This document shows positions 2,145 to 54,721 of a stretch of DNA of 64,000 nucleotides, one piece after another. The DNA lies in assembly GCF_001046635.1 (NCBI RefSeq), contig NZ_KQ130452.1, forward strand, positions 422,668 to 486,667. The letters run 5' to 3'. The DNA is from Novosphingobium barchaimii LL02. GTDB lineage: Bacteria > Pseudomonadota > Alphaproteobacteria > Sphingomonadales > Sphingomonadaceae. Numbering within the stretch: the stretch's first letter is position 1; each line of letters starts with the position of its first letter. Under the pieces are notes generated by a model, which saw nothing but the letters and a program-made list of their open reading frames with translations, was not told the DNA's origin and did not search any database. The position numbers and the translations under genes were made by a program.

Positions 2145-2488
2145 TCGGGCCGGGAACTGGCGTGCGGGTTTATCTGGCCTGCGGCGTCACTGATATGCGC
2201 AAAGGCATCTCTGGCCTTGGTCAGCTGGCCCAGACGGTGCTGCGACAGAAACCGACAAGCGGCGCGGTGTTCGCTTTTCGAGGACGTCGCGGGGACAGGG
2301 TGAAGCTGCTGTACTGGGATGGGCAGGGATTTTGCCTGTACTACAAGGTTTTGCAGCGTGGCCGTTTTCCTTGGCCCTCTGCTGCGGACGGGACTGCGCG
2401 GCTGACCTCAGCCCAGCTCGCAATGCTGTGGGAAGGCATCGACTGGAGACGCCCAAATTGGGGCGCGCCGCCTGCCCATGTGGGCTGA
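2141..2488 (+). CDS. tnpB: IS66 TnpB (Orf2)
   Basis: This 115-aa protein carries the diagnostic IS66 Orf2 segments: [17 protein letters not shown] near the start and [18 protein letters not shown] in the middle, ending with the [15 protein letters not shown] block. Length is normal for the family. It overlaps the tnpA stop, which indicates coupling. It is needed for transposition but its biochemical role is not known. Confidence 0.95.
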
Positions 2489-2550
2489 TTTTTGTTCCTG
2501 AATCTACTTGTTTTCATGGATATTCCTGCCCCTGGCTGGTAAGCAGGATC

Positions 2551-4161
2551 ATGCTGAGCGCGGCGCAAAATCTTCCCGAAGACCCGGCTTTGCTGAAGGC
2601 GATAATCGCCGACTTGCAGGCGGAAAACGCGAAGCTGGCGGCAACGGTCCGTGCACATGATCTGGTGGTTCAGGCACTGCGTCTGCGCATTGCAAAACTG
2701 AAGAAACAAGCCTTCGGCAAATCCTCGGAAAAGATCGAACGCGAGATCGAGCAGCTGGAACTGGCGCTAGAGGACATTCTGGTCGCTGCGGCACAAACCG
2801 TCGCTTTGCCGAGTGATGTCGAAGAGGATGAAGCCACTGCGCATGTAGACAGCGCACGGGCCATGGCCCGGCGTCCGCGCGTTGCGTCCGACACGCCGCG
2901 CGAGCGAAAAGAACTCGACCCGGGCAGCGCTTGTCCCGATTGCGGGGGCGAGTTACGCCTCGTCGGCGAGGACGTGAGCGAAATCCTCGAGATGATCACA
3001 GCCAGGCTGAAGGTGATCGAGGTAGCGCGGCCGAAAAAGTCCTGCCGCAGCTGTGAGAAAATGGTGCAGGTGCCGGCTCCGAGCCGCCCGATCCCCGGCA
3101 GCATGGCCGGAAGCAGCCTGCTGGCCTACGTGCTCGTCTCAAAATTCGACGATCACTTGCCGCTGTACCGGCAGAACGAAATCCTTGCCCGCATGGGCGC
3201 TGACATTCCCCGCAGCACGCTGGCTGACTGGTGCGGCAAGGCGATGCGAAGCCTCCAGCCCCTGATCGAGCGTATTGAGGCTTCGGTTCTGGCCAGCACC
3301 GTCATCCACGCCGATGATACACCGATCCAGGTGCTGGACCACACAAGGCGAGCCAAGGGGCTCGGCAAGGGCGTAAAGCAAGGCAGGATCTGGGGTTATG
3401 TCTGCGATCAGCGCCCGTGGAACGGGCCGGCACCGCCGGGTGTGGTCTATCGCTTTGCCCCCAACTGGAAGGCGGAGCACGTGCAAAACCACCTTTGCAA
3501 TGCGAGCGGCATTCTCCAGGCCGACGCCTACAAGGGATATGCGAAGCTCTATGAGCCCGGCGCGGACGGCGAACCGCGCTTCCGGGAAGCTGCCTGCTTC
3601 GCCCATTGGCGGCGTGACTTCCACGACATCTGGAAAGCGAACAAATCCCCGATAGCGCGAGAAGCCCTCGATCGCATCGGCCAGTTGTATGACATTGAAC
3701 GCGAAATCGCCGGGAAGCCTGCCGATGTTCGGCGTGCCGTCCGCCAGGAGCATAGCAAACCCAAACTCGAGGCGTTGCGCGCCTGGGCCGAGCAGCAACT
3801 CACCCGCATCCCCGTCAAGGGCGACTTGGCCAGCGCTATTCGTTACGGCTTGGGTCGCTGGCAAGCCTTCTCATTGTTCACCGAGGATGGGCGCGTCGCC
3901 ATCGATAACAATGCCGCTGAGCGAGCCGTGAGACCTATTGGTCTAGGAAGACGCAACTGGCTCTTCGCCGGCTCCGAAGCAGGCGCTGAAACCCTGGCGC
4001 GGGCCATGACGCTTATTGAAAGTGCCAAGATGAGCGGACTCGATCCGCAGGCTTATCTCGCCGACGTGCTCGGCCGTATCCATGATCATAAGATCAACCG
4101 GATCGAGGAATTGCTGCCTTGGAACTGGGTGCCCTTGGTGCCGTTGGCAGAGGTAGCCTGA
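2551..4161 (+). CDS. tnpC: IS66 transposase TnpC (DDE enzyme)
   Basis: The protein is 536 aa from the ATG at 2551; the frame is open further upstream but only as a shadow of tnpB. Domains in order are a leucine-rich coiled coil (about 15-75), a zinc-finger-like region (CPDCGGEL, then CRSCEK), the DDE core with [11 protein letters not shown], an [11 protein letters not shown] segment and a [20 protein letters not shown] block, and the short C-terminal IS66 domain. All are full length, so it should be active. The stop overlaps the next start (TGATG). Confidence 0.96.
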
Positions 4162-23306: not shown

Positions 23307-24323
23307 TTACGTCCTCGTGCCGGTGCGGAGAAGGTCGGGGCGCTGGTTGAAGTACAGCGGGTAGCTGTACAGTTCGCCACGGGTCCAAGCTGCGCGCTGC
23401 AGATCAGGGATGTTCAGGGCGTACACGTCCTGGCCGGGGGTGTTGACGTAGGGGCCGAACTCAGCCGGTGCCATCGCCTTCTTGAACACGTCCTGCGCGC
23501 CCACGGGGAAGAAGATGGCGTTGTCCACGCCCACCGCGACGGTCGAATTGTCGTCGGTGCCCTGGTAGTTATGCCAGGTGATGCCGCCATATTCGAAATC
23601 ACCGAAGCTGTTGTTGCCGCGCAGATCGGCGGCAGCGGACCAGTTCAGATAGGTGGTGCGGACCTGCGGGTGGTTGATCAGCGCGTCATAGAAGGCATCG
23701 CCGACCAGTGCGTGAACCTTCGTTGCCGGGGTCCATGCGCCCTTGGAGGTGCGCTTCATCGAGCGGATCACCTGCGCGCACTTGCCGCGAACGTCGGTGG
23801 TGTCGACGTTCAGTGCGAAGCTGATGGCGTCGGGCGCGGTCACGCCGAACGCGGTGAAGTAGTTGTAGATCACCGTCGTGCCATCGGCATCGAGAAGGAG
23901 GCCCTGCAGCGCGCCCAGACGATGGAACTCGTGGGTCAGTTCCATGTCGTTGCGGACGCGCGAGAGGCGGCGCAGGTACTCAGTCTGGACCGACTGCAGT
24001 TCGCTCTGCGACCCGAAGGCGCGGATGCCTTGCACCTCTTCGGCGTAGATCGTGAAGCCCTTTGCAAGACGCGTGGTCTTGAGGGGCACTGCGTCACGCT
24101 GATCGCGCACCAGTTCGGCAGGCGGTGCGCCGACCGGCGACGAGGGGATGAGCGCCAGCGTCGAGCCGCGACGATCGACCCAGATGTCCCGCGTGGTCAC
24201 GGCCATCGAGTCGAACAGGCCGAGCTGCCCCAGAAGCTGCGGAACGTAGTCCATCTTGTCGACCGCGCCGGTGAGCGAGGTCATCGAGAAGGCCGACGAG
24301 TTGAAGATATCCATTCCAGCCAT
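23307..24323 (-). CDS. Major capsid protein (lambda gpE-like family)
   Basis: This 338-aa protein has the layout of the lambda gpE family (MDIFNSSAFSMTSLTGAVDK at the N-terminus, an extended middle VRNDMELTHEFHRLGALQG, and a C-terminal NTPGQDVYALNIPDLQRA). A gpD-like decoration gene precedes it and a protease/scaffold gene precedes that, the order of lambda-type heads. It has the HK97 fold by family. Met4 is an alternative start. Confidence 0.92.
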   Translation of the reverse strand: MAGMDIFNSSAFSMTSLTGAVDKMDYVPQLLGQLGLFDSMAVTTRDIWVDRRGSTLALIPSSPVGAPPAELVRDQRDAVPLKTTRLAKGFTIYAEEVQGIRAFGSQSELQSVQTEYLRRLSRVRNDMELTHEFHRLGALQGLLLDADGTTVIYNYFTAFGVTAPDAISFALNVDTTDVRGKCAQVIRSMKRTSKGAWTPATKVHALVGDAFYDALINHPQVRTTYLNWSAAADLRGNNSFGDFEYGGITWHNYQGTDDNSTVAVGVDNAIFFPVGAQDVFKKAMAPAEFGPYVNTPGQDVYALNIPDLQRAAWTRGELYSYPLYFNQRPDLLRTGTRT

Positions 24324-24334
24324 TGTCGGGCCCC

Positions 24335-24700
24335 TTATCGAACGATGATGCCGAGCGCCGCGAGTGCAGCGTTGGCGGTTGCAATGGCTGCGGCGTCTGC
24401 GCCGGCAGAGTAGGTGAGGTTCGCGCCCACGACCTGGGCGTCACGCGAAACGATGGTGCGCTTGGCGGTGCCGATGACGCCTTCGAACAGAATGCCCGCG
24501 ACGGTCTGCGAGCCGTCCGAGGCGCCGGGCGCGTGCCGCACGAAATTGCCGCCAGCGGTGATCTTGCCAAGCAGCGTGCCGGCGACAAGGCCGGGTGCAG
24601 CACCGCCGGCGACGGTCACCTGGTCGCGCGAACGGTACATGCCCTGCGCTTCCGAGATCAGGAAGCCGGCGGTGTGAATGCCTTCGGTCAGAATGGCCAT
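24335..24700 (-). CDS. Head decoration protein (lambda gpD-like)
   Basis: This 121-aa protein is rich in Ala and Gly, with LVAGTLLGKIT and VAGILFEGVIG segments typical of the gpD trimer family. It stands between the protease/scaffold and capsid genes. Known role: trimers cement the expanded capsid surface. Confidence 0.88.
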   Translation of the reverse strand: MAILTEGIHTAGFLISEAQGMYRSRDQVTVAGGAAPGLVAGTLLGKITAGGNFVRHAPGASDGSQTVAGILFEGVIGTAKRTIVSRDAQVVGANLTYSAGADAAAIATANAALAALGIIVR

Positions 24701-24703
24701 GTC

Positions 24704-25840
24704 TTAGGCTCCCTTCTTCACGGCCACGCCGGCCGACTGGAATACGTTGTCGTTCCACGCGGATGCGCCGTCCGAGACGTTGATAGGCGAACCGATCGGC
24801 TGCACCGCCTGGTCGTCGACCTTCATGTCCCGGGTCAGCGAGTCGAACGCGATCTGGACGTGATCACCGGCGTAAGTGTTGCCCGGCATCATCTTGTCTA
24901 CGACCGCCTTGATGATGGTGGCCTCGTCCATGGCGTCGGTGACGGGGATGCCGGCCGACTTGCCCTTGGCGACGACGACCGCGAACTGGCGGGCAGCATC
25001 GCGCAGCTGGGCCGGGGTCGGCTTGGCCGCTTCCAGCGCCTGCTTGTCGGCGGTCAGCTTGGCGATCTCCGCATCCTTCGCGACGATGGTCGCGGCGTCG
25101 GTGACGGACTGCGCCTGTGCGGTGGTGAGGCTCGCGGTGGCAGTGTCGCGGGCGGCGATAAGGGTGGCGATCGTCCGTTCGGCGATCTCTGGGTTGGCGA
25201 TATCGACGGAATACCCGTCAACCGTCAGCAGCTTAGGCACGGGCATCTCCTGAGTAAGGGAATCGAGGATGTTGGAGGGGAGGGCGTCACAGACGGCGAA
25301 ACCGTCCTTGATGGCGCATTCGGAACCAGCGCGGCCGCGATCGACCAGCGCAACATGGTTTCCGGCGATGGAAGTCTGGCGCGCCTGGCACTTGGTGCCG
25401 TCCGCTGCGGTGAAATCGCCGAACTCAAGGTCAGCGCTGTAGCCGTTGCTTAGTTCGCGCTTGCCTGCGTCCACTTTGGCGATGGCGCTGGCGTCGGTCA
25501 GGAGGAGGTCGAAGGCGAGATAATCACCGTCGCGCATCGCGCCCATGACGGTCCCGCGCGCGTGATCGCGCCAGTTGGCGGTGGTGACCGGGGCGGCAGG
25601 GTGGTCGTCGGTGACCGGCTTACCGATGAAGGAGCGGACTGCCTTTTCGTCGAAGACGGTGCGGTCGTCGCGGAGCACGTTGACCAGCGCAGTGTCGCGC
25701 AGCCCGTGCTTGTTGTCGGGGTCTACCTCGGAGCCGCCGTACTGGTAGACGCCGATGCGCGCCGCCCGTGCGCGGACAGCCATCGCGCCGCCCTCAATGC
25801 GGCGGGGTGCGTCTAGCGTGAGGCTGTCCCGAAATTGCAT
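24704..25840 (-). CDS. DUF2213 capsid maturation protease/scaffold
   Basis: This 378-aa protein has an N-terminal DUF2213 domain (about 1-190: YQYGGSEVDPDNKHGLRDTA, FIGKPVTDDHP, ELSNGYSADLEF, NHVALVDRGRAG), where the His and Ser residues suit a prohead-protease fold. A coiled-coil scaffold-like region rich in Ala and Thr (about 215-285) follows, and a C-terminal tail. A protease fused to its scaffold is common in phage heads. The start lies 34 nt from the recurrent GACGGCGGTAA element and has AAGG as ribosome-binding site. Confidence 0.85.
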   Translation of the reverse strand: MQFRDSLTLDAPRRIEGGAMAVRARAARIGVYQYGGSEVDPDNKHGLRDTALVNVLRDDRTVFDEKAVRSFIGKPVTDDHPAAPVTTANWRDHARGTVMGAMRDGDYLAFDLLLTDASAIAKVDAGKRELSNGYSADLEFGDFTAADGTKCQARQTSIAGNHVALVDRGRAGSECAIKDGFAVCDALPSNILDSLTQEMPVPKLLTVDGYSVDIANPEIAERTIATLIAARDTATASLTTAQAQSVTDAATIVAKDAEIAKLTADKQALEAAKPTPAQLRDAARQFAVVVAKGKSAGIPVTDAMDEATIIKAVVDKMMPGNTYAGDHVQIAFDSLTRDMKVDDQAVQPIGSPINVSDGASAWNDNVFQSAGVAVKKGA

Positions 25841-25909
25841 GACACCTTGAATAAGGCAGCGAATTATTTGAGTTTACCGCCGTCACACGAAAACGATTCG
25901 GGGGTAAAA

Positions 25910-26188
25910 ATGGCAAATAATCTGCACGTGTCGTACGACCTCAACTCGCCGGGCCAAAACTACGAAAAGGTCATTGGTGCGATCAAGACTTTAGGCGATT
26001 GGGGGAAAATTCATAAATCTTACTTCTATGTAACATCCAACTATACGTCGTCTCAGGCTGCGGACATTGTTTGGGCCGCAATGGATTCCAGTGACACGGT
26101 TTATGTCGTAGATGCGACTAACAACACGGCCCACTGGTACAACGTAGATACTGAGGTGACCTCGTTCATCAAGGAACGGTGGGCCTAA
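25910..26188 (+). CDS. Moron: Cas2/VapD-like small protein
   Basis: A 92-aa protein facing against the head operon, started at ATG 25910 after GGGGG; the frame is open upstream but without a better start. The pattern is beta-alpha-beta: HVSYDLNSPGQNYEKVIGAI, then KSYFYVTSNYTSSQAADIVW, then TVYVVDATNNTAHWYN. The YDL-PG-NYEKV start and ferredoxin-like order recall the Cas2/VapD group and so-called SinR-like small proteins. A nuclease or toxin-like role is possible but not shown; no clear catalytic residue besides the Asp after strand 1 (D9). Confidence 0.72.
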   Translation: MANNLHVSYDLNSPGQNYEKVIGAIKTLGDWGKIHKSYFYVTSNYTSSQAADIVWAAMDSSDTVYVVDATNNTAHWYNVDTEVTSFIKERWA

Positions 26189-26988
26189 TCGAACGCAACC
26201 ACCGCCTGCGATCGACACCCGCAGTAGGGCAACCGCCCAGGTAGATCCTGCGGCGCCGTTGCGTCGGTGTAATCCTTGCCGTCCCGCGCCGCGTGCTCGG
26301 GGCGGTAGTGGAGTTTATGACTCGATCGCCACTTCCACGTATCGATGCCCGCCTCGCGCCGACGCTCATCCGCGAGCGCGCTGGTCAGCTTGGTGAGCTG
26401 GTCCGAGGCGATCCGAACCGATCGGTCGCGACCCATCCCCGTCTTCTCGCGGATCGTCTTCGCCACCTCGCGCGCCGGGGTACGGTTGGTCAAGCCGTCG
26501 AATACCGCGGCGCTGATGCGCTGGCGCACCTGATCGGACACGTCTGCCACGAGAGCAGCATTCCACTGGATCGTCGTCTCCAGGCTGGCGCGCACGTCCT
26601 CGGGTCCAAGCATGGTCTGCAAGTCAACGCCGGTGGCCGACAGCACAGCGCCGCGCCACTTGCCGCGCTGCCACTGCTCGACGCGCAACGCCCACTCCCG
26701 CAGCGCCGGGGTCAGCATCAGCACAAGGCGGTTCACCTCGCCGGCGGCCGTGTCGATCTCGGCCTTCACGTCGGCCGCGCTGTCGGTGGTCATCTCGCCG
26801 ATGGTGCGGGCGTATTCGGCCTCGATGCGGGGAAGGGCGCTTATCCACGCTTCGACCACAGGCTTATACACAGCCCGATAGAGGTCGGTCGCCAGCACAG
26901 CCGGGGGCACAATATCGCGCAGGACTATGCTCGACCGGCGGACATTGCGCTGCCGGCGGGCGAGGATGGCTAGGTCGAAGCGGGGCAC
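26185..26988 (-). CDS. Head morphogenesis protein (MuF/SPP1 gp7-like)
   Basis: Start chosen at GTG 26988 (VPRFDLAILARRQ), just after the stop of the small upstream gene; the longer frame is a shadow. The 267-aa product has the MuF C-terminal block: REVAKTIREKTGMGRDRSVR, IASDQLTKLTSALADERR, then TWKWRSSHKLHYRPEHAARDG and LPYCGCRSQA. The minor head protein enters the capsid with the portal in related phages. Confidence 0.88.
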   Translation of the reverse strand: MPRFDLAILARRQRNVRRSSIVLRDIVPPAVLATDLYRAVYKPVVEAWISALPRIEAEYARTIGEMTTDSAADVKAEIDTAAGEVNRLVLMLTPALREWALRVEQWQRGKWRGAVLSATGVDLQTMLGPEDVRASLETTIQWNAALVADVSDQVRQRISAAVFDGLTNRTPAREVAKTIREKTGMGRDRSVRIASDQLTKLTSALADERRREAGIDTWKWRSSHKLHYRPEHAARDGKDYTDATAPQDLPGRLPYCGCRSQAVVAFD

Positions 26989-26989
26989 G

Positions 26990-27169
26990 TCATCCCTCAA
27001 TCGGCGGCAGCGGCTTAATCGTAACCACCACCTCGAAATCTTTCCCGCCGGGCTTACCGACCCATCCCGTCGACCTCGATCCTTCGAGACGCACATCGTA
27101 TGAGCCGTTGATACCCATGGCCTTCATGGCGGCCTGGATGGCATCGGATGCGTCGAGGACGGATTTCAT
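26990..27169 (-). CDS. Small phage protein between portal and MuF (59 aa)
   Basis: MKSVLDASDAIQAAMKAMG, then a short beta-rich part ending KPLPPIEG. Its ATG overlaps the portal stop (ATGA) and its stop lies next to the MuF GTG start, so it is coupled on both sides. Not recognised. Confidence 0.6.
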   Translation of the reverse strand: MKSVLDASDAIQAAMKAMGINGSYDVRLEGSRSTGWVGKPGGKDFEVVVTIKPLPPIEG

Positions 27170-29073
27170 GCCTCAACCACCTTGGATTTCCAGTCGAGGT
27201 CCAGCGGCTCGAACAGCTCAGGCCCGAACTCCAGCGCACCGGTGAACGGCTTGAGCGCATCGAGGTCGAAGTCGGCCGGCACGTCGTACGAGATGGTGAC
27301 GTGCGGCTGATAATCGGGGAAGTCGTGGGACCCGCCAGCCTCAACCATGGAGCGGTGCCGGCCCTCAATGTCGTAGGACGCGAACAGCAGCACGACGGCG
27401 CTCTCGCCCAGGCGCTCGATCGCGCGCGGGCCACCGGGCTTCACGCGCACATTTCCCTTGTCGTCACCGCTCCAGCCTTCGCCCATCTTCATCGGGTCCA
27501 CGGCGGTGCGCGAATAGAGCACGGTGACGTGCATGTCGTCGGCGGGCAGGGTGCTGGTGAAGCCATTGGCCTTCGCCCAAGCGATCAGGTCCGCGCCGTT
27601 CAGCAGCTTGCGCTGGACGTAGAGCGGGCGCGGCGTGGCATCGACGAAGAACGCGGCAGCATCGTTGGCGGCACGGCGGGCGGGGACGCTGCCCCCGCCA
27701 CCGGCAGATGGTACGATCACCTCCTTTCCAGATTGGAGCGCATTGGGATCGTCGTCGTTATCGGCCGGCGGCTTGGGGTTGAGGCCGAAGCGCTCATCCT
27801 CAGGGATCTCGGAAAGCGCCTGGTCGAGACCGGGAATGTACTCCCGCTCCGACATGAGGTTCTGCACGCCCTTGGCGAACGCCTCGTCAGGTATAGTGCC
27901 CGTGGCCTGCACAAGGGTGACCGCCTCCATGGTGGTCTTGAAGGTCGTTGCTTCCTCTGCCTCGCTGGGTACGGACAAGGGCGCGAACTTCCACGTCACC
28001 TTCGCTGGATCGACGCCTGCCGAGCGCAACAGGAACGGGTCCAACTTCTCCAGGCAGGGGCGGGTTTCCAGCTTCTGGCCGGAGACGACCATCTTGTTCC
28101 AGTTGTCATCGTCAGACTTGCCCGTGGCGTTCATGCCAGCGGGCGAGCGGCCCATCAGACGGGTGAACGGGATATCCGACACGGCGGCAACGCGCTGGTC
28201 GAACGCGTCCATCATCGCGGGTATGCCGTTCCAGGTGACCTGATAGTCGGTGATCGTCTCGCCTGCGTCGTCGGCGCCACCGGATGAGCGGTAGACCGTT
28301 GCGTTCAGGCTGCTCTCGCCCAGGCCGATGACCTCGATGCGCTTGTTCAGTTCCTCGACGTCGCGGCTATCAAGATCGGGGATGCCGATGCGCAGGAGCT
28401 TGGCCTTGCGAACCAGCGCCGCGAACCATGCCTGCGTCTCGTCGGATCGCGAGACCTCGGTGTAGACGCGCAGCAGCCGGGAATCGCCCCAGAATGCTTC
28501 TTCGTCGCCAACGGCGGAACCGGCGGGGATGCGCGCGCCCCGGAAGCAGATGACGCGGCTCGGGTGGATATTAACCGCGGCGCCCGTCTCGCCCTTCATC
28601 TCCCACATCGTCGGCTCACCATACTGCGGCGAAGTGAGTTCCTTGATCCATTCCTTGCCGGTGATCTGCCAGCGCGAGACGACGTTGATGGCGACGATGC
28701 CGCCCTTGGTGATCTGTTCGGGCTTGAGTTCTTGGCTGTGATCGCCGGCAGTGATGATGAGCAGCGCGCCGCCGCCGATCCCGCGAAGGTTCTCGGCTTC
28801 CTGCACCTTGGCGGTCAGGGCAAGCCGGGCCTCTTCCTTCTCGATTGCCTCAATGGCCTTGGCATCAGCCTGCCAGTCACGCCACTCGCGCACACGATCC
28901 TCGGCGGGGATCGAAATCACCTTCTTCATCATGCCCGACGCCATGTAGGCGGCAGTGGCCAGTTCGTGGGAGAAAATGCCGGAGAGGGCGGTAGATGTCG
29001 CGCCACGTCCGAATGGGTTCAGGCGACCGGCCGCCTCGATAGCGCCGCGCAGACTGTCGGTGATCCAGGCCAT
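27166..29073 (-). CDS. Phage portal protein fused to a C-terminal 2H-phosphoesterase (Acb1-like) domain
   Basis: The 635-aa protein is a portal of the DUF1073 type over about residues 1-450 (SVVGDEEAFWGDS-like crown/clip region, SDIPFTRLMGRSPAGMNATG). After an Asp/Pro-rich linker (about 430-470) comes a separate domain (about 480-635) with two HxT motifs, H515-V-T517 in DDMHVTVLYS and H591-V-T593 in YQPHVTISYD, 76 residues apart. Two HxT motifs define 2H phosphoesterases; Acb1 of T4, which destroys CBASS cyclic nucleotides, is of this class. The portal sits at one head vertex. The fused domain could act during infection against CBASS signals; that is inferred. Confidence 0.88.
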   Translation of the reverse strand: MAWITDSLRGAIEAAGRLNPFGRGATSTALSGIFSHELATAAYMASGMMKKVISIPAEDRVREWRDWQADAKAIEAIEKEEARLALTAKVQEAENLRGIGGGALLIITAGDHSQELKPEQITKGGIVAINVVSRWQITGKEWIKELTSPQYGEPTMWEMKGETGAAVNIHPSRVICFRGARIPAGSAVGDEEAFWGDSRLLRVYTEVSRSDETQAWFAALVRKAKLLRIGIPDLDSRDVEELNKRIEVIGLGESSLNATVYRSSGGADDAGETITDYQVTWNGIPAMMDAFDQRVAAVSDIPFTRLMGRSPAGMNATGKSDDDNWNKMVVSGQKLETRPCLEKLDPFLLRSAGVDPAKVTWKFAPLSVPSEAEEATTFKTTMEAVTLVQATGTIPDEAFAKGVQNLMSEREYIPGLDQALSEIPEDERFGLNPKPPADNDDDPNALQSGKEVIVPSAGGGGSVPARRAANDAAAFFVDATPRPLYVQRKLLNGADLIAWAKANGFTSTLPADDMHVTVLYSRTAVDPMKMGEGWSGDDKGNVRVKPGGPRAIERLGESAVVLLFASYDIEGRHRSMVEAGGSHDFPDYQPHVTISYDVPADFDLDALKPFTGALEFGPELFEPLDLDWKSKVVEA

Positions 29074-29130: not shown

Positions 29131-29649
29131 ATGACCGAAGAACAACTCAAAGAGTTCGCAGAGCAGGGTATGAGTGAGCGCGGTTGGATAGCTAATTCCT
29201 ATGCTCAAATTGAATACCTGCTCGGAGATCTCATTGTGCATTGCCGGGAATTCCCGCTCTACATTACTCAGACGGGCACGGTCAGCCACAGTGCTGCAAA
29301 GCGGGTGAAGAAGGTTCGTGACATGCTGGCCCTAGATGGCCCGTTATCTCCGTACTCCGAAATCCTCACAAGTGTTCTCGACGCTTTCGAGGGCAATCAC
29401 GAAGTGCGAAATCTCTTGGCCCATGGGTTTTGCGTGATCCACCACACACCTACAGGTGATGCCGGTTTTGTATTTCGGAAGTTCGACCGCGATGCAGCCA
29501 CCGAACTTGGCGACGACGCGGCTGCCGTCATCAGGACCTTTCGATTAGTGGATCTCCAATACCACCGCGCCCAAATGGTCGATCAAGCGCAACAGGCACT
29601 CGCCGCCTTCGTCGGCATGTACAACGCTCTGGGCTGGGCTGGCCCTTAA
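29131..29649 (+). CDS. Moron: HEPN-like protein (candidate abortive-infection RNase)
   Basis: A 172-aa helical protein in the opposite strand between the terminase and portal genes, started at ATG 29131 after GGAGGAGG. It contains R93-N-L-L-A-H98 (RNLLAHGF), an Rx4H motif with polar residue after the Arg, the signature of HEPN ribonucleases and of many anti-phage systems. Helix 1 (ANSYAQIEYLLGDLIVHC) fits the HEPN first helix. Ends overlapping the terminase gene tail to tail by 4 nt. No partner nucleotidyltransferase is seen beside it. An abortive-infection function is inferred. Confidence 0.75.
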   Translation: MTEEQLKEFAEQGMSERGWIANSYAQIEYLLGDLIVHCREFPLYITQTGTVSHSAAKRVKKVRDMLALDGPLSPYSEILTSVLDAFEGNHEVRNLLAHGFCVIHHTPTGDAGFVFRKFDRDAATELGDDAAAVIRTFRLVDLQYHRAQMVDQAQQALAAFVGMYNALGWAGP

Positions 29650-31052
29650 AGCAGGTTATCCATCGAATACCCTGCCTTGCCCATCATCAGCTCAGTCATC
29701 GCCCAAACCAGCGCATCAGCCCTGTCCGGCGATCCCTCACCGACGTAGCCCGATGCGGTGAAGTTGCACATCTGATCCTCCAGGTCGGGCAGGTTGCCGA
29801 CGTGACTGACCTTACCCTGCTCGTACAGCGCGGCGATTGGTTCGGCGCGGATCACCTTGCCGCGCGTGGCGGTGACCTCCTTGAACCGGGCCTTGATCCC
29901 CGCTGCTCGCAGCACGGCGCCGACCATCGCGCCGCCGAAGTTGCGTTCGGCCACGATGCAGTCGGCGTTCCAGTGAGCCGCGCGGTCATTGACGCGCCGG
30001 CCCCAGCCCTCCGGCGATAGCTGGCAGGTCGCATCCTCCAGCACATAGGCCCGGCCATCCACGCCCTTGCCAGCGACCACGATGCCGATGTCATCCCCGC
30101 CGCCGTCGCCCTTGGTGCCTGATGGATCGACCGCGACGACGATGCGCTGCATGTCCGGCAGGCCGTTCTTCGCCACTCGGAAGCGATCGATGCCCGGTAT
30201 CTCGCCGCCTTCGGTAACGCGATCCTCGATCGTCCACAGCGCGCCGTTGACGTCGCTCGCCCATTCGCCCTTCTCGAAGCGCAGGCGCTGCGCCGCGCTC
30301 ATGTTGGCGAGGATCTCGAAATACTTGGGCGGCAGGTTGGCGGCGTTGTCCGAGGGGTTCACCAGCATCTCGGCGTAATCGTCGGGATCGGCCAGCTTCT
30401 CCTTGGTGCCCGGCTTCATCTTCGCGCGGAACAGCACATAGGACCAGTGCAGCTTGGAAGGCGGGTTGCAATCGAAGTAGGCTTTGAGCGACAGGTGCGT
30501 GCGGCCGGTTGCCGCGGCAATCGCGGGATCAAGCGGCACGTTCTGCGCCAGGCGAGACATCGCCATTTCGACTGACGACCACGCGATCTGCGAGGACTCG
30601 TTGAAGTAGAGCGTCACATACTCGGCGCCGAGGATCTTCTCGACGCGCTCCTTGTCGTCGAGGCCCCCGATCCAGATTTGCGATCCGTTCGGAAACTCGA
30701 TGTAGAAGTCGGTCTTGTTCCAGGTCACCGCCAGGCCCGGGAAGCATAGCTTGAGAACCTTGGGCAGCGTGTCGGACCAGATCGAGGTCTTCGCGTGGTT
30801 GAACCGGAAACGGAAGATTGCATGCCGCCCGCCGGGCGCGTTGATGGCGCGTTGACAGATGGCGCGGATGAGCAGGAACGTCTTGCCCGAGCGCGAGCCG
30901 CCCCGGAGCATGATGTTCGTGGCAGCACTGGCGAGGAGGTCGCGCGCCTCTTCCTGCTTCGGGGTCAGCTTGGCGATCGACGGGCCGCCGTTGTGGCCTA
31001 TGCCGGGTCGTTCAGCAGTAATCTCGGAGGTGAAGCCGGTGGCTGGGCTCAT
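29646..31052 (-). CDS. Terminase large subunit
   Basis: Start at ATG 31052 overlapping the DUF4031 stop. The 468-aa protein has the ATPase Walker A GGSRSGKT (51-58), a Walker B-like VTLYFNESS, and the nuclease part with VAVDPSGTKGDGGGDD and the final SPDRADALVWAMTEL. An N-terminal IGHNGGPS (18-25) matches a short motif also found in another gene of this phage. It packages DNA into the head through the portal. Confidence 0.95.
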   Translation of the reverse strand: MSPATGFTSEITAERPGIGHNGGPSIAKLTPKQEEARDLLASAATNIMLRGGSRSGKTFLLIRAICQRAINAPGGRHAIFRFRFNHAKTSIWSDTLPKVLKLCFPGLAVTWNKTDFYIEFPNGSQIWIGGLDDKERVEKILGAEYVTLYFNESSQIAWSSVEMAMSRLAQNVPLDPAIAAATGRTHLSLKAYFDCNPPSKLHWSYVLFRAKMKPGTKEKLADPDDYAEMLVNPSDNAANLPPKYFEILANMSAAQRLRFEKGEWASDVNGALWTIEDRVTEGGEIPGIDRFRVAKNGLPDMQRIVVAVDPSGTKGDGGGDDIGIVVAGKGVDGRAYVLEDATCQLSPEGWGRRVNDRAAHWNADCIVAERNFGGAMVGAVLRAAGIKARFKEVTATRGKVIRAEPIAALYEQGKVSHVGNLPDLEDQMCNFTASGYVGEGSPDRADALVWAMTELMMGKAGYSMDNLL

Positions 31053-31420
31053 GCGCTCACGACATTCCGCATGCCGCGGCAATTTGCCACCATCTCCATC
31101 ATCTTCCGGCCGCGCGTTTCACGTGCCGGGTCGCCGGAAGCAATGTCGAGGCGAGAGGTATGCTCTACCGGACCGTATCGATCGGTCAGGATCGCGCCAT
31201 AGCGCTGAGCTTCGGCCTTCTTGCTCAGGCTGATGTCGAAGTGGACCCACGACGCGTTGCGGTGCTTGCCAAATGACAGCGTGGGGTGGCCTTGTATCCA
31301 CTTCCGCTGCACGCCGATCGTGTCGACCATGGACAGCAACTCTTCCAAGGTGTCGGCCCACAGGTGGCACATGACCATGTTGCCGAAGCGGTGGCGCACA
31401 TCGTCGACGTAGACGGTCAT
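31049..31420 (-). CDS. DUF4031 protein
   Basis: A 123-aa protein with the DUF4031 pattern: MTVYVDDVRHRFGNMVMCHL, WADTLEELLSMVDTIGV, WVHFDISLSKKAEAQRYGA. The family is common in phages and actinobacteria; function is not known. It lies between the two terminase genes with 4-nt overlaps on both sides. Confidence 0.88.
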   Translation of the reverse strand: MTVYVDDVRHRFGNMVMCHLWADTLEELLSMVDTIGVQRKWIQGHPTLSFGKHRNASWVHFDISLSKKAEAQRYGAILTDRYGPVEHTSRLDIASGDPARETRGRKMMEMVANCRGMRNVVSA

Positions 31421-31920
31421 AGCGCAGCGTCCTTCGCATCCACCACGACGGTAAGCCCGCCGGTGTGCTCGATCTTTTCCTTGAAGGCCTGCACGTCGAT
31501 GTGCTTGCCGATCAGCTCAACGCGCTTAATGCGGTCGGACAGTTTGACCTTGCGGACGCTGCCGATGACCACGCCCTCGACGCGCAGTTCCTCGACGTCG
31601 ACGCCAGCGACAAGGCCCTGCCTCCAGATGAGCGGCCAGTCATGGACCTTCTTCAGGGTGCCCTCAGCGTCGTACAGGTCGGCAAGGTCAGCATCGGCTT
31701 CCAGGGCAAGGCGTTGCAGCACCCAATCGGAGTTGACCTGCGTTCGCTCCGATCGCGCCGACTGACCCGCCGTTACCGCTCTCTGCACGTCAACATTCGT
31801 CAACAGGCGTTGGCCCTGCTGTTTCGCTGTCTTCGCGCTGTAGCCTGCCCGAATGGCTGCCTGAGTGGCATTAAGGTCGACAAGGTACTCGGCGGCGAAA
31901 CGGCGCTGCTTGTCGTTCAC
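31417..31920 (-). CDS. Terminase small subunit
   Basis: The 167-aa product opens MNDKQRRFAAEYLVDLNATQ then AAIRAGYSAKTAKQQGQRLL, the exact N-terminal DNA-binding helix pattern of the Terminase_2 family, and later DRIKRVELIGKHIDVQAF. It recognises the pac/cos site and loads the large subunit. Confidence 0.94.
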   Translation of the reverse strand: MNDKQRRFAAEYLVDLNATQAAIRAGYSAKTAKQQGQRLLTNVDVQRAVTAGQSARSERTQVNSDWVLQRLALEADADLADLYDAEGTLKKVHDWPLIWRQGLVAGVDVEELRVEGVVIGSVRKVKLSDRIKRVELIGKHIDVQAFKEKIEHTGGLTVVVDAKDAAL

Positions 31921-47532: not shown

Positions 47533-47888
47533 CCAGACTTCTCACCGCAGAACAGGTCTGCCAGCAATTCGGCATACCATCGACCCGCACGCTTCGCACG
47601 ATGCGACAGAAGGGGCTTACCGCAGTCCGCTTGGGTAAGGCCTTCCTGTTCGACGAATCGGACGTCACCAAGTTCATTGAGAAACAGAAAACATGCCAAG
47701 ACCCAACCGAGGGCCGCGTCTCCATTGGCTCCCAGATCGATCGACCTTCTACATTCTCTGGTACGAGCGTGGGAAGAAGTGCGTTCGGTCAACTGGCACG
47801 GCAGACCGCCGCGAAGCTGAAGCAGCCCTCGCGAAATTCATCGGGGCAAGTCATCAGCATCTCGGGCCGCGAGAACCCGGGCAAATAG
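47529..47888 (+). CDS. Excisionase-like helix-turn-helix protein
   Basis: Start at ATG 47529 on the previous stop. Residues 1-55 are an HTH_17/MerR-like excisionase fold: MTRLLTAEQVCQQFGIPSTR, TLRTMRQKGLTAVRLGKAFL, FDESDVTKFIEK. The rest (to 119 aa) is Ser/Gln rich and overlaps the integrase gene by 196 nt in another frame. Likely directs excision with the integrase. Confidence 0.82.
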   Translation: MTRLLTAEQVCQQFGIPSTRTLRTMRQKGLTAVRLGKAFLFDESDVTKFIEKQKTCQDPTEGRVSIGSQIDRPSTFSGTSVGRSAFGQLARQTAAKLKQPSRNSSGQVISISGRENPGK

Positions 47889-48730
47889 GCGTGGCTGAGG
47901 CGCTCTCATTTTATCTGGAGCATCGGGCGCCGAAAGCTGCCGACCCCACGCGGATCGCCTACGCTGTCGAAGCCTTGCTGCCGTTTTGGGAGCACAACAT
48001 GCTCGACCAGATAACGCCGCTGACATGCGAGGCTTACGGGCGTCACCGGGGCATGGCCCCCGGCACCGTGCGGCGCGAGCTGGCGACGATCACGGCGGCG
48101 CAGAATTTCCTATTCAGGGAGGGCAAGTTGACCCGCGTGGTGGCCGTTCCGCTTCCTGGCAAGCCCGATCCGAAAGACCGCTGGCTGACTGTCAGCGAGG
48201 CTGCGCTTTTGTTGAATGAGGCTCGCCAAGGTGGCCGCGATACCCGGCTTTACCTCCCGCTGTTCGTGCTGATCGCCCTTTATACCGGAGCGCGCAAAGA
48301 GGCGATCCTGTCGCTGAAATGGCCGCAGGTGGACTTGAAGGCAAAGCGCATCGCATTCTCTGTGCCGGGCCGCGCAAAGACGAAGAAGCGCCGGCCAACA
48401 CTGCCTATCCCGCGCCGCCTGCTGACGTTCCTTCATCTGGCGTGGCGCAGGCGGTCGAGCGATATCGGACCCGTCATCCACATCGACGGCAGGCCGATCC
48501 TGCGAATCGACAAAGGGTTCCGGGCTGCTGTCGTCCGCACCGGCCTGAAAGACGTGACACCGCATACCCTGCGGCACACGCGCGGGACCTGGCTGGCGCA
48601 GAACGGGGTGCCCATGTGGGACATTGCTGGGTGGCTCGGACAAGACCCTGAGACGACGGCGCGCATCTACGCGCACCACTCACCAGACTTCATGGACAAG
48701 GCCCTTGAGGCCGCAGATCGGAGGCGATGA
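47693..48730 (+). CDS. int: Tyrosine-recombinase integrase
   Basis: A 345-aa integrase: N-terminal arm-binding part (WYERGKKCVRSTGTADRREA), core-binding helices (about 65-160) and the catalytic domain with TGARKEAILSLKW (Arg I), TPHTLRHTRGTWLA (His-x-x-Arg) and GWLGQDPETTARIYAHHSPD (Tyr). It ends 107 bp before a half tRNA-Pro that marks attR. Confidence 0.95.
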   Translation: MPRPNRGPRLHWLPDRSTFYILWYERGKKCVRSTGTADRREAEAALAKFIGASHQHLGPREPGQIGVAEALSFYLEHRAPKAADPTRIAYAVEALLPFWEHNMLDQITPLTCEAYGRHRGMAPGTVRRELATITAAQNFLFREGKLTRVVAVPLPGKPDPKDRWLTVSEAALLLNEARQGGRDTRLYLPLFVLIALYTGARKEAILSLKWPQVDLKAKRIAFSVPGRAKTKKRRPTLPIPRRLLTFLHLAWRRRSSDIGPVIHIDGRPILRIDKGFRAAVVRTGLKDVTPHTLRHTRGTWLAQNGVPMWDIAGWLGQDPETTARIYAHHSPDFMDKALEAADRRR

Positions 48731-54449: not shown

Positions 54450-54526
54450 GCGGGTGTAGCTCAGTTGGTTAGAGTGCCGGCCTGTCACGCCGGAGGTCGC
54501 GGGTTCGAGCCCCGTCACTCGCGCCA
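54450..54526 (+). tRNA. tRNA-Asp (GTC), copy 1
   Basis: 77 nt; acceptor GCGGGTG/CACTCGC, D-arm with AGTTGGTTA, anticodon stem CCGGC/GCCGG with loop CTGTCAC (anticodon GTC at 54484-54486), T-arm GCGGGTTCGAGCCCCGT, encoded CCA. Confidence 0.97.
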
Positions 54527-54644
54527 CTTGGGATCCTTCTTGCATGAGAAGGATATGTTCCATGCCTGTGACAAGGCAGGGAATTTTCCGGGAAGCCGGA
54601 AGTATATTCTAGGCCGAGTTGTTCTTGGTCTTTTTCATCGCTGC

Positions 54645-54721
54645 GCGGGTGTAGCTCAGTTGGTTAGAGTGCCGGCCTGTCACGCCGGAGGTCGCGGGTT
54701 CGAGCCCCGTCACTCGCGCCA
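54645..54721 (+). tRNA. tRNA-Asp (GTC), copy 2
   Basis: Identical to the copy at 54450 over all 77 nt (anticodon at 54679-54681). The 118-nt spacer differs from other flanks; probably one transcript. Confidence 0.97.

Follow-up and report, generated by a model that had tools for sequence, protein, structure and literature searches.

Why a phage portal protein should end in an apparent enzyme, and what that enzyme might act upon, is the question raised by a 64,000-nucleotide stretch of the Novosphingobium barchaimii LL02 genome (contig NZ_KQ130452.1, positions 422,668 to 486,667; hereafter the window, in whose numbering coordinates are given unless another locus is named). The protein in question is the 635-residue product of an open reading frame on the minus strand (27166..29073), in which a Phage_portal_3 core is followed by a C-terminal Acb1 domain. 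It is proposed here that the portal probably carries a tethered and complete 2H phosphodiesterase of the Acb1 type that cleaves the cyclic oligonucleotides used as immune signals, blunting the cyclic oligonucleotide-based antiphage signalling system (CBASS) in the host. The portal identity itself is apparent from the family score, the portal fold, and the position beside the terminase: the core (residues 40-386, 27916..28956, minus strand) was matched by Pfam PF06381 at 330.4 bits (E 1.3e-98). PHROGs assigned the reading frame to the portal family phrog_146 and also to phrog_755, labelled RNA ligase, a label that gene 57B bears too in the phage T2 record. NCBIfam returned TIGR01555 only, under its cut-off, and PADLOC gave no match for the portal.

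The C-terminal domain (residues 483-630, 27184..27627, minus strand) was matched by the Acb1 family, Pfam PF23474, at 135.5 bits against a cut-off of 27 (E 1.4e-39), which is far beyond chance. The sole other 2H-type model listed, 2_5_RNA_ligase2, scored 13.4 bits, under its cut-off of 27, and LigT_PEase was not listed for the reading frame at E up to 0.1 in the Pfam search. A preliminary description of this DNA had placed an Acb1-like 2H domain at 27166-27633 (residues 481-635), limits that fit the family match well, and had proposed a structure comparison with Acb1; the predicted fold of the domain was found to agree with solved Acb1, which has the 2H fold, with LigT and, ranked lower, Usb1 also in the list of structure matches.

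The two catalytic motifs, H515-V-T517 (27523..27531) and H591-V-T593 (27295..27303), correspond to H44/T46 and H113/T115 of Acb1, respectively, and lie exactly where they had been placed earlier in the 635-residue frame; the tetrad has the form H-T-H-[TS] in 107 of 110 distinct rows. The roles of the Acb1 ligand residues, including the stacking of Y12, were set out in PMC9117128. Four of these five residues (Y12, W74, F107, and W147 for stacking, E141 for adenine) are kept in the window domain, namely Y485 (27619..27621) for the stacking Y12, F585 (27319..27321) for the stacking F107, E622 (27208..27210) for the adenine contact E141, and W628 (27190..27192) for W147, the lid aromatic, all of these, like the two motifs, being read on the minus strand. 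Acb1 cleaves cyclic oligonucleotides 3' of adenosine (PMC9117128), and since the catalytic and most of the ligand residues are kept, the portal domain likely shares this chemistry. The two HxT pairs would cut signals such as cyclic triadenylate (cAAA) or 3'3'-cyclic GMP-AMP (3'3'-cGAMP) by acid-base catalysis, and cleavage of the signal would blunt CBASS in the host; an anti-CBASS activity of the portal domain is plausible.

Portal core and Acb1 domain are joined by a flexible linker (residues 435-477, 27643..27771, minus strand; predicted local distance difference test, pLDDT, < 50), the first part of which contains an acidic DNDDD run, followed by RRAAND. The acidic linker noted in the preliminary description is thus present, but it is not special to the fusion, as portal relatives devoid of the domain have a comparable tail, at which they end; the Acb1 domain therefore looks to have been simply added behind that tail. 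Of the portal frames, 66 of 102 fused and 17 of 32 unfused ones bear an (A/V)ND tail motif, to which no function was assigned; its pattern differs somewhat between the two sets.

The distribution of the domain among related portals bears on whether it is a fixed part of the protein. A scan with the portal core yielded 43 loci, 14 with Acb1 in frame and 29 without (two of the latter, L060 and L089, being cut by a contig end). On a core tree built by a quick method from 124 rows, with 13 fragments left out, 96 rows carry Acb1 and 25 do not (among them L054, with a PBECR3-like tail), L060 (contig end) as well as L042 and L110 (Acb1 in a separate frame) being uncounted. The presence or absence of the domain changes at least 13 times on this tree, 11 of the changes being forced by starred branches, and a portal without the domain (L056) and one with it (L061) share 96.1% identity across 387 core residues. 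The ratio of non-synonymous to synonymous divergence (dN/dS) of the domain was 0.07-0.17 in each of 11 fused-portal pairs chosen by hand, some of the dS values being near or above 1 and hence rough; the Acb1 domain is under purifying selection. With selection added to the family score, the fold, and the catalytic and ligand residues, the earlier claim of a separate Acb1-like 2H domain fused to the portal is supported. The dN of the domain was below that of the core in nine of the 11 pairs (0.13 versus 0.79 for the window and L003, 0.03 versus 0.56 for L005 and L010), and in several of these nine the silent divergence was also far lower in the domain than in the core, which points to cassette exchange between diverged portals. 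The Acb1 domain thus behaves as an exchangeable cargo cassette that is gained, lost, and exchanged under selection.

When viral contigs were scanned with the window domain, 41 loci were recovered, near copies among them: the domain is fused in frame to a Phage_portal_3 core at 39 and to a Mu-type portal at one (L038), and the last (L029) is cut by a contig end. In bacterial genomes, a profile scan recovered 63 loci, at 53 of which the domain is in frame with Phage_portal_3. Both scans set out from portal-fused patterns and hence favour fusions of this kind. The other bacterial loci comprise fusions to Portal_Mu (L119, L130, L145) and to the HK97-type Phage_portal (L114, L126), two loci with Acb1 in a separate frame adjoining a Phage_portal_3 frame (L110, L152), and L153 (a 2702-residue frame of polyvalent type), L146, and L150. 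Three portal families, Phage_portal_3, Mu-type, and HK97-type, accordingly carry the domain. Independent origins of these fusions were considered and not upheld: on the domain tree the Mu-type and HK97-type rows lie among the Phage_portal_3 fusions, but starred branches force at most one origin for either. Of 246 genomes sampled from the order to which G002, itself a host, belongs, five contain Acb1, in open frames of 610-701 residues, three of these genomes (G002, G015, G030) being already known from the bacterial scan; 385 genomes drawn from its class gave five matches, two above the cut-off (G002 again and a 759-residue frame) and three below. In several plasmid and phage records, Acb1 proteins go under the label ‘prohead protein/protease’, but in the two examined (L044 and L045, about 150 and 138 residues) the Acb1 match takes up nearly the whole protein, and the label was taken as a mis-annotation.

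Neither the architecture nor the anti-immunity idea is new. Fusions of 2H domains to portals were reported, and their use against nucleotide-signalling immunity proposed, in 2017 (PMC5512222), and PMC9503650 (2022) repeated the 2H fusions and proposed packaging and injection against SMODS-type signalling. In both papers, 2H domains are joined to MuF or portal proteins in the architecture, and with the proposed immunity role, of the window portal; data on presence and absence, exchange, and selection are not in the parts of either paper covered. The population evidence for an exchangeable cargo under selection is what is added here. An experimental test of portal-fused Acb1 was not found in the literature searched, in which few subscription journals were covered. 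In free Acb1 (PF23474; phage FBB1 structures 7t26 and 7t27; T4 Acb1; T2 57B), the domain stands alone, whereas that of the window is portal-fused and has W74 replaced; T4 Acb1 we take to be the product of gene 57B, a name recorded for T2.

Several observations weigh against an enzyme of immune signals. W74 of Acb1 is replaced by I552 in the window domain, a tryptophan being found at this place in only 2 of 127 aligned rows, and catalytic letters are changed in a few rows (HxA in L022/L023, YxT in L038). On a domain tree made by a quick method, with many open forks and long branches, a starred branch separates three free T4-like rows from the remaining 117, so the substrate of the portal-fused domain may differ; the two other free ones, L044 and L045 (on long branches), do not stand apart. 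The core was better conserved than the domain in two of the 11 pairs (window/L004, L063/L064). Finally, 13 related virus records that lack the fusion showed no Acb1 elsewhere (the records may be fragments; the same search was positive in G001), and the domain therefore seems dispensable. A 2H enzyme working on RNA instead (2',3'-cyclic ends, 2'-5' bonds, or as an RNase) would accord with the activities of the wider 2H superfamily, with LigT and the lower-ranked Usb1 among the structure matches, with the RNA ligase label of phrog_755, and with PMC5512222, where RNase action is named as one of the two roles open to 2H domains of this kind. We nevertheless judge it unlikely in view of the 135.5 bits of the Acb1 model versus 13.4 for the RNA-ligase-type model and of the Acb1 ligand residues kept, including the adenine contact E141. 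That the domain is domesticated or dead, serving as a structural part of the portal, would suit its permanent attachment to a structural protein and the few rows with a lost catalytic letter; with the tetrad kept in 107 of 110 rows, portals up to 96% identical that do without the domain, and a disordered tether, this is very improbable.

If the domain is an active Acb1-type phosphodiesterase, where it would act is a further matter. The nearest solved portal, that of cyanophage Pam3 (8hds), has 12 chains, i.e., it is a dodecamer, and the preliminary description had envisaged one enzyme copy per portal subunit (about 12) in each virion, ready at infection. Portals are not injected and remain in the emptied particle, so that the enzyme would reach a newly infected cell only if freed; ‘ready at infection’ is therefore unproven, and the domain would first need release. 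The Pam3 portal, like that of the window, has an Acb1-like C-terminus (464-618 of 621, E 4.7e-32), differing in its second motif, HIS. Its model comprises 442 residues versus 621 in the sequence, and the Acb1-like part seems to have been left unbuilt; 8hds is absent among the structure matches listed for the domain, which proves nothing alone and may be explained by the short modelled length. Phage Mu gp29 belongs to another portal family (the Mu-type portals with Acb1 being L038, L119, L130, and L145) and, like the window portal, has a C-terminal tail, whose last 124 residues are absent from the virion structure and are thought to be cut off in head assembly (PMC11915804). In E217, the C-terminal barrel of the portal projects into the head (PMC10329688), and by analogy the domain, on its flexible tether, would point into the head as well.

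The facts from Pam3, Mu, and E217 leave room for a domain that is released inside the head and ejected along with the DNA, yet they also suit one that stays attached and is merely mobile, which would then act in the producing cell. The same enzyme might thus work late, where new portals and proheads appear, with no virion delivery at all, a serious contender to which we give somewhat less than an even chance: for at least one CBASS, sensing is linked to a head-assembly protein, a portal-borne enzyme could clear the signal near its source, and the portal gene adjoins the terminase and head genes, whereas the slot and the domain are also found with typical partners of injected effectors (PBECR3, LPD38), and the seemingly unbuilt Pam3 domain is as compatible with release as with mobility. 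Whether part of the domain comes loose inside the head, for instance through cleavage by the maturation protease, and exits with the DNA is in our view evenly balanced, the DUF2213 maturation protease encoded nearby being a candidate cutter of the linker. The fullest version of the delivery of Acb1 by the portal, in which the C-terminus is a polymorphic cargo bay holding Acb1, a PBECR nuclease, or both in tandem on a flexible tether in the head, to be freed by the phage maturation protease and ejected with the DNA as up to 12 anti-CBASS enzymes before phage gene expression, is doubtful as a whole. Were the domain to be released and ejected, CBASS would be disarmed on phage entry by enzymes borne on the DNA gate, and prophage structural genes would be a place to seek anti-defence enzymes. 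The Pam3 structure, and host genomes in which such a prophage coexists with a NucC-type CBASS operon, make the idea directly testable.

The host genomes were searched for CBASS for 48 of the 63 bacterial loci, leaving out 13 loci from metagenome-assembled genomes (MAGs), L152, and L154 (same organism as L124), including six Sphingomonadales by title; matches to the cGAS/DncV-like nucleotidyltransferase (CD-NTase) model SMODS above the cut-off were present in 12 of the 48. They were found in 6 of 13 Sphingomonadales hosts, an assignment that we presume, versus 14 of the 246 genomes sampled from the G002 order (Fisher p 1e-4), and at 45 bits or more in 3 of 13 versus 6 of 246 (p 0.007), a comparison that is post hoc, uncorrected for genome size and isolate or MAG status, based on 13 hosts picked by title, and with G002, G015, and G030 in both sets. 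As three of the six positive hosts have weak matches and two share one identical operon, the association is a hint only. A CBASS operon with NucC, which responds to cAAA, is also present in two host genomes that carry all or part of such a prophage: Novosphingobium silvae (L095, where just the portal end is in frame with the domain) and Sphingobium scionense (L098, with the full portal core in frame) have cyclase, HORMA, TRIP13, and NucC together with a PDC-S71 gene. The operon was scanned in L159, and all six compared proteins are identical in L160, across the genera Novosphingobium and Sphingobium.

Other enzymes at the portal slot, and unusual frames, were met as well. At L054:3205-5157, a portal whose core is 77% identical to L004 has a PBECR3 nuclease-like domain, under the Pfam cut-off, in place of Acb1, and L036:1848-4223 is a single 792-residue frame of portal, Acb1, and PBECR3 nuclease. 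Such portals resemble that of the window in holding an enzyme in the C-terminal slot, although PBECR3 is an unrelated enzyme, a predicted RNase; PBECR-portal fusions are already in print (PMC5512222). L087:4001-5230 has 194 residues behind the portal core, exceeding the usual tail, in which Pfam recognizes no family at E ≤ 0.01, and possibly represents another kind of cargo. L153:1011-9116, from a proteobacterial MAG, combines SNase, Acb1, and LPD38 domains in its polyvalent-type frame, and L146:4833-5894 is a single frame of Acb1 followed by a Gp49 (DUF891) domain. In Synechococcus phage Yong-M3-232 (L042:1540-1680), the portal frame enters the start of Acb1 and stops, after which a repeated stretch opens another frame holding the domain; the break may be real or a matter of assembly.

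The genes around the portal are those of a head operon on the minus strand. On one side lie the terminase large subunit (29646..31082) and small subunit (31417..31920), both assigned by Pfam; on the other are a MuF-type head morphogenesis protein (26185..27096; PF04233, phrog_324, no further Pfam domain listed), the DUF2213 protein that PHROG classes as a head maturation protease (24704..25840; PF09979, phrog_530), a head decoration protein (24335..24700; PF02924), and major capsid protein E (23307..24323; PF03864). A phage integrase family protein (47693..48730, plus strand; PF00589) adjoins thymidylate synthase and housekeeping genes and probably lies close to the right end of the element, which, because of the head and terminase genes around the portal and this integrase beside thymidylate synthase and the housekeeping genes, is most likely a prophage. 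A small open reading frame on the plus strand (25835-26188) separates the MuF and protease genes and matches phrog_1090, of unknown function (E 4.6e-22). An IS66 transposase is encoded toward the left end of the window (2332-4161, plus strand), and two tRNA-Asp genes lie near each other at 54450-54721 (plus strand), to the right of the integrase and the housekeeping genes.
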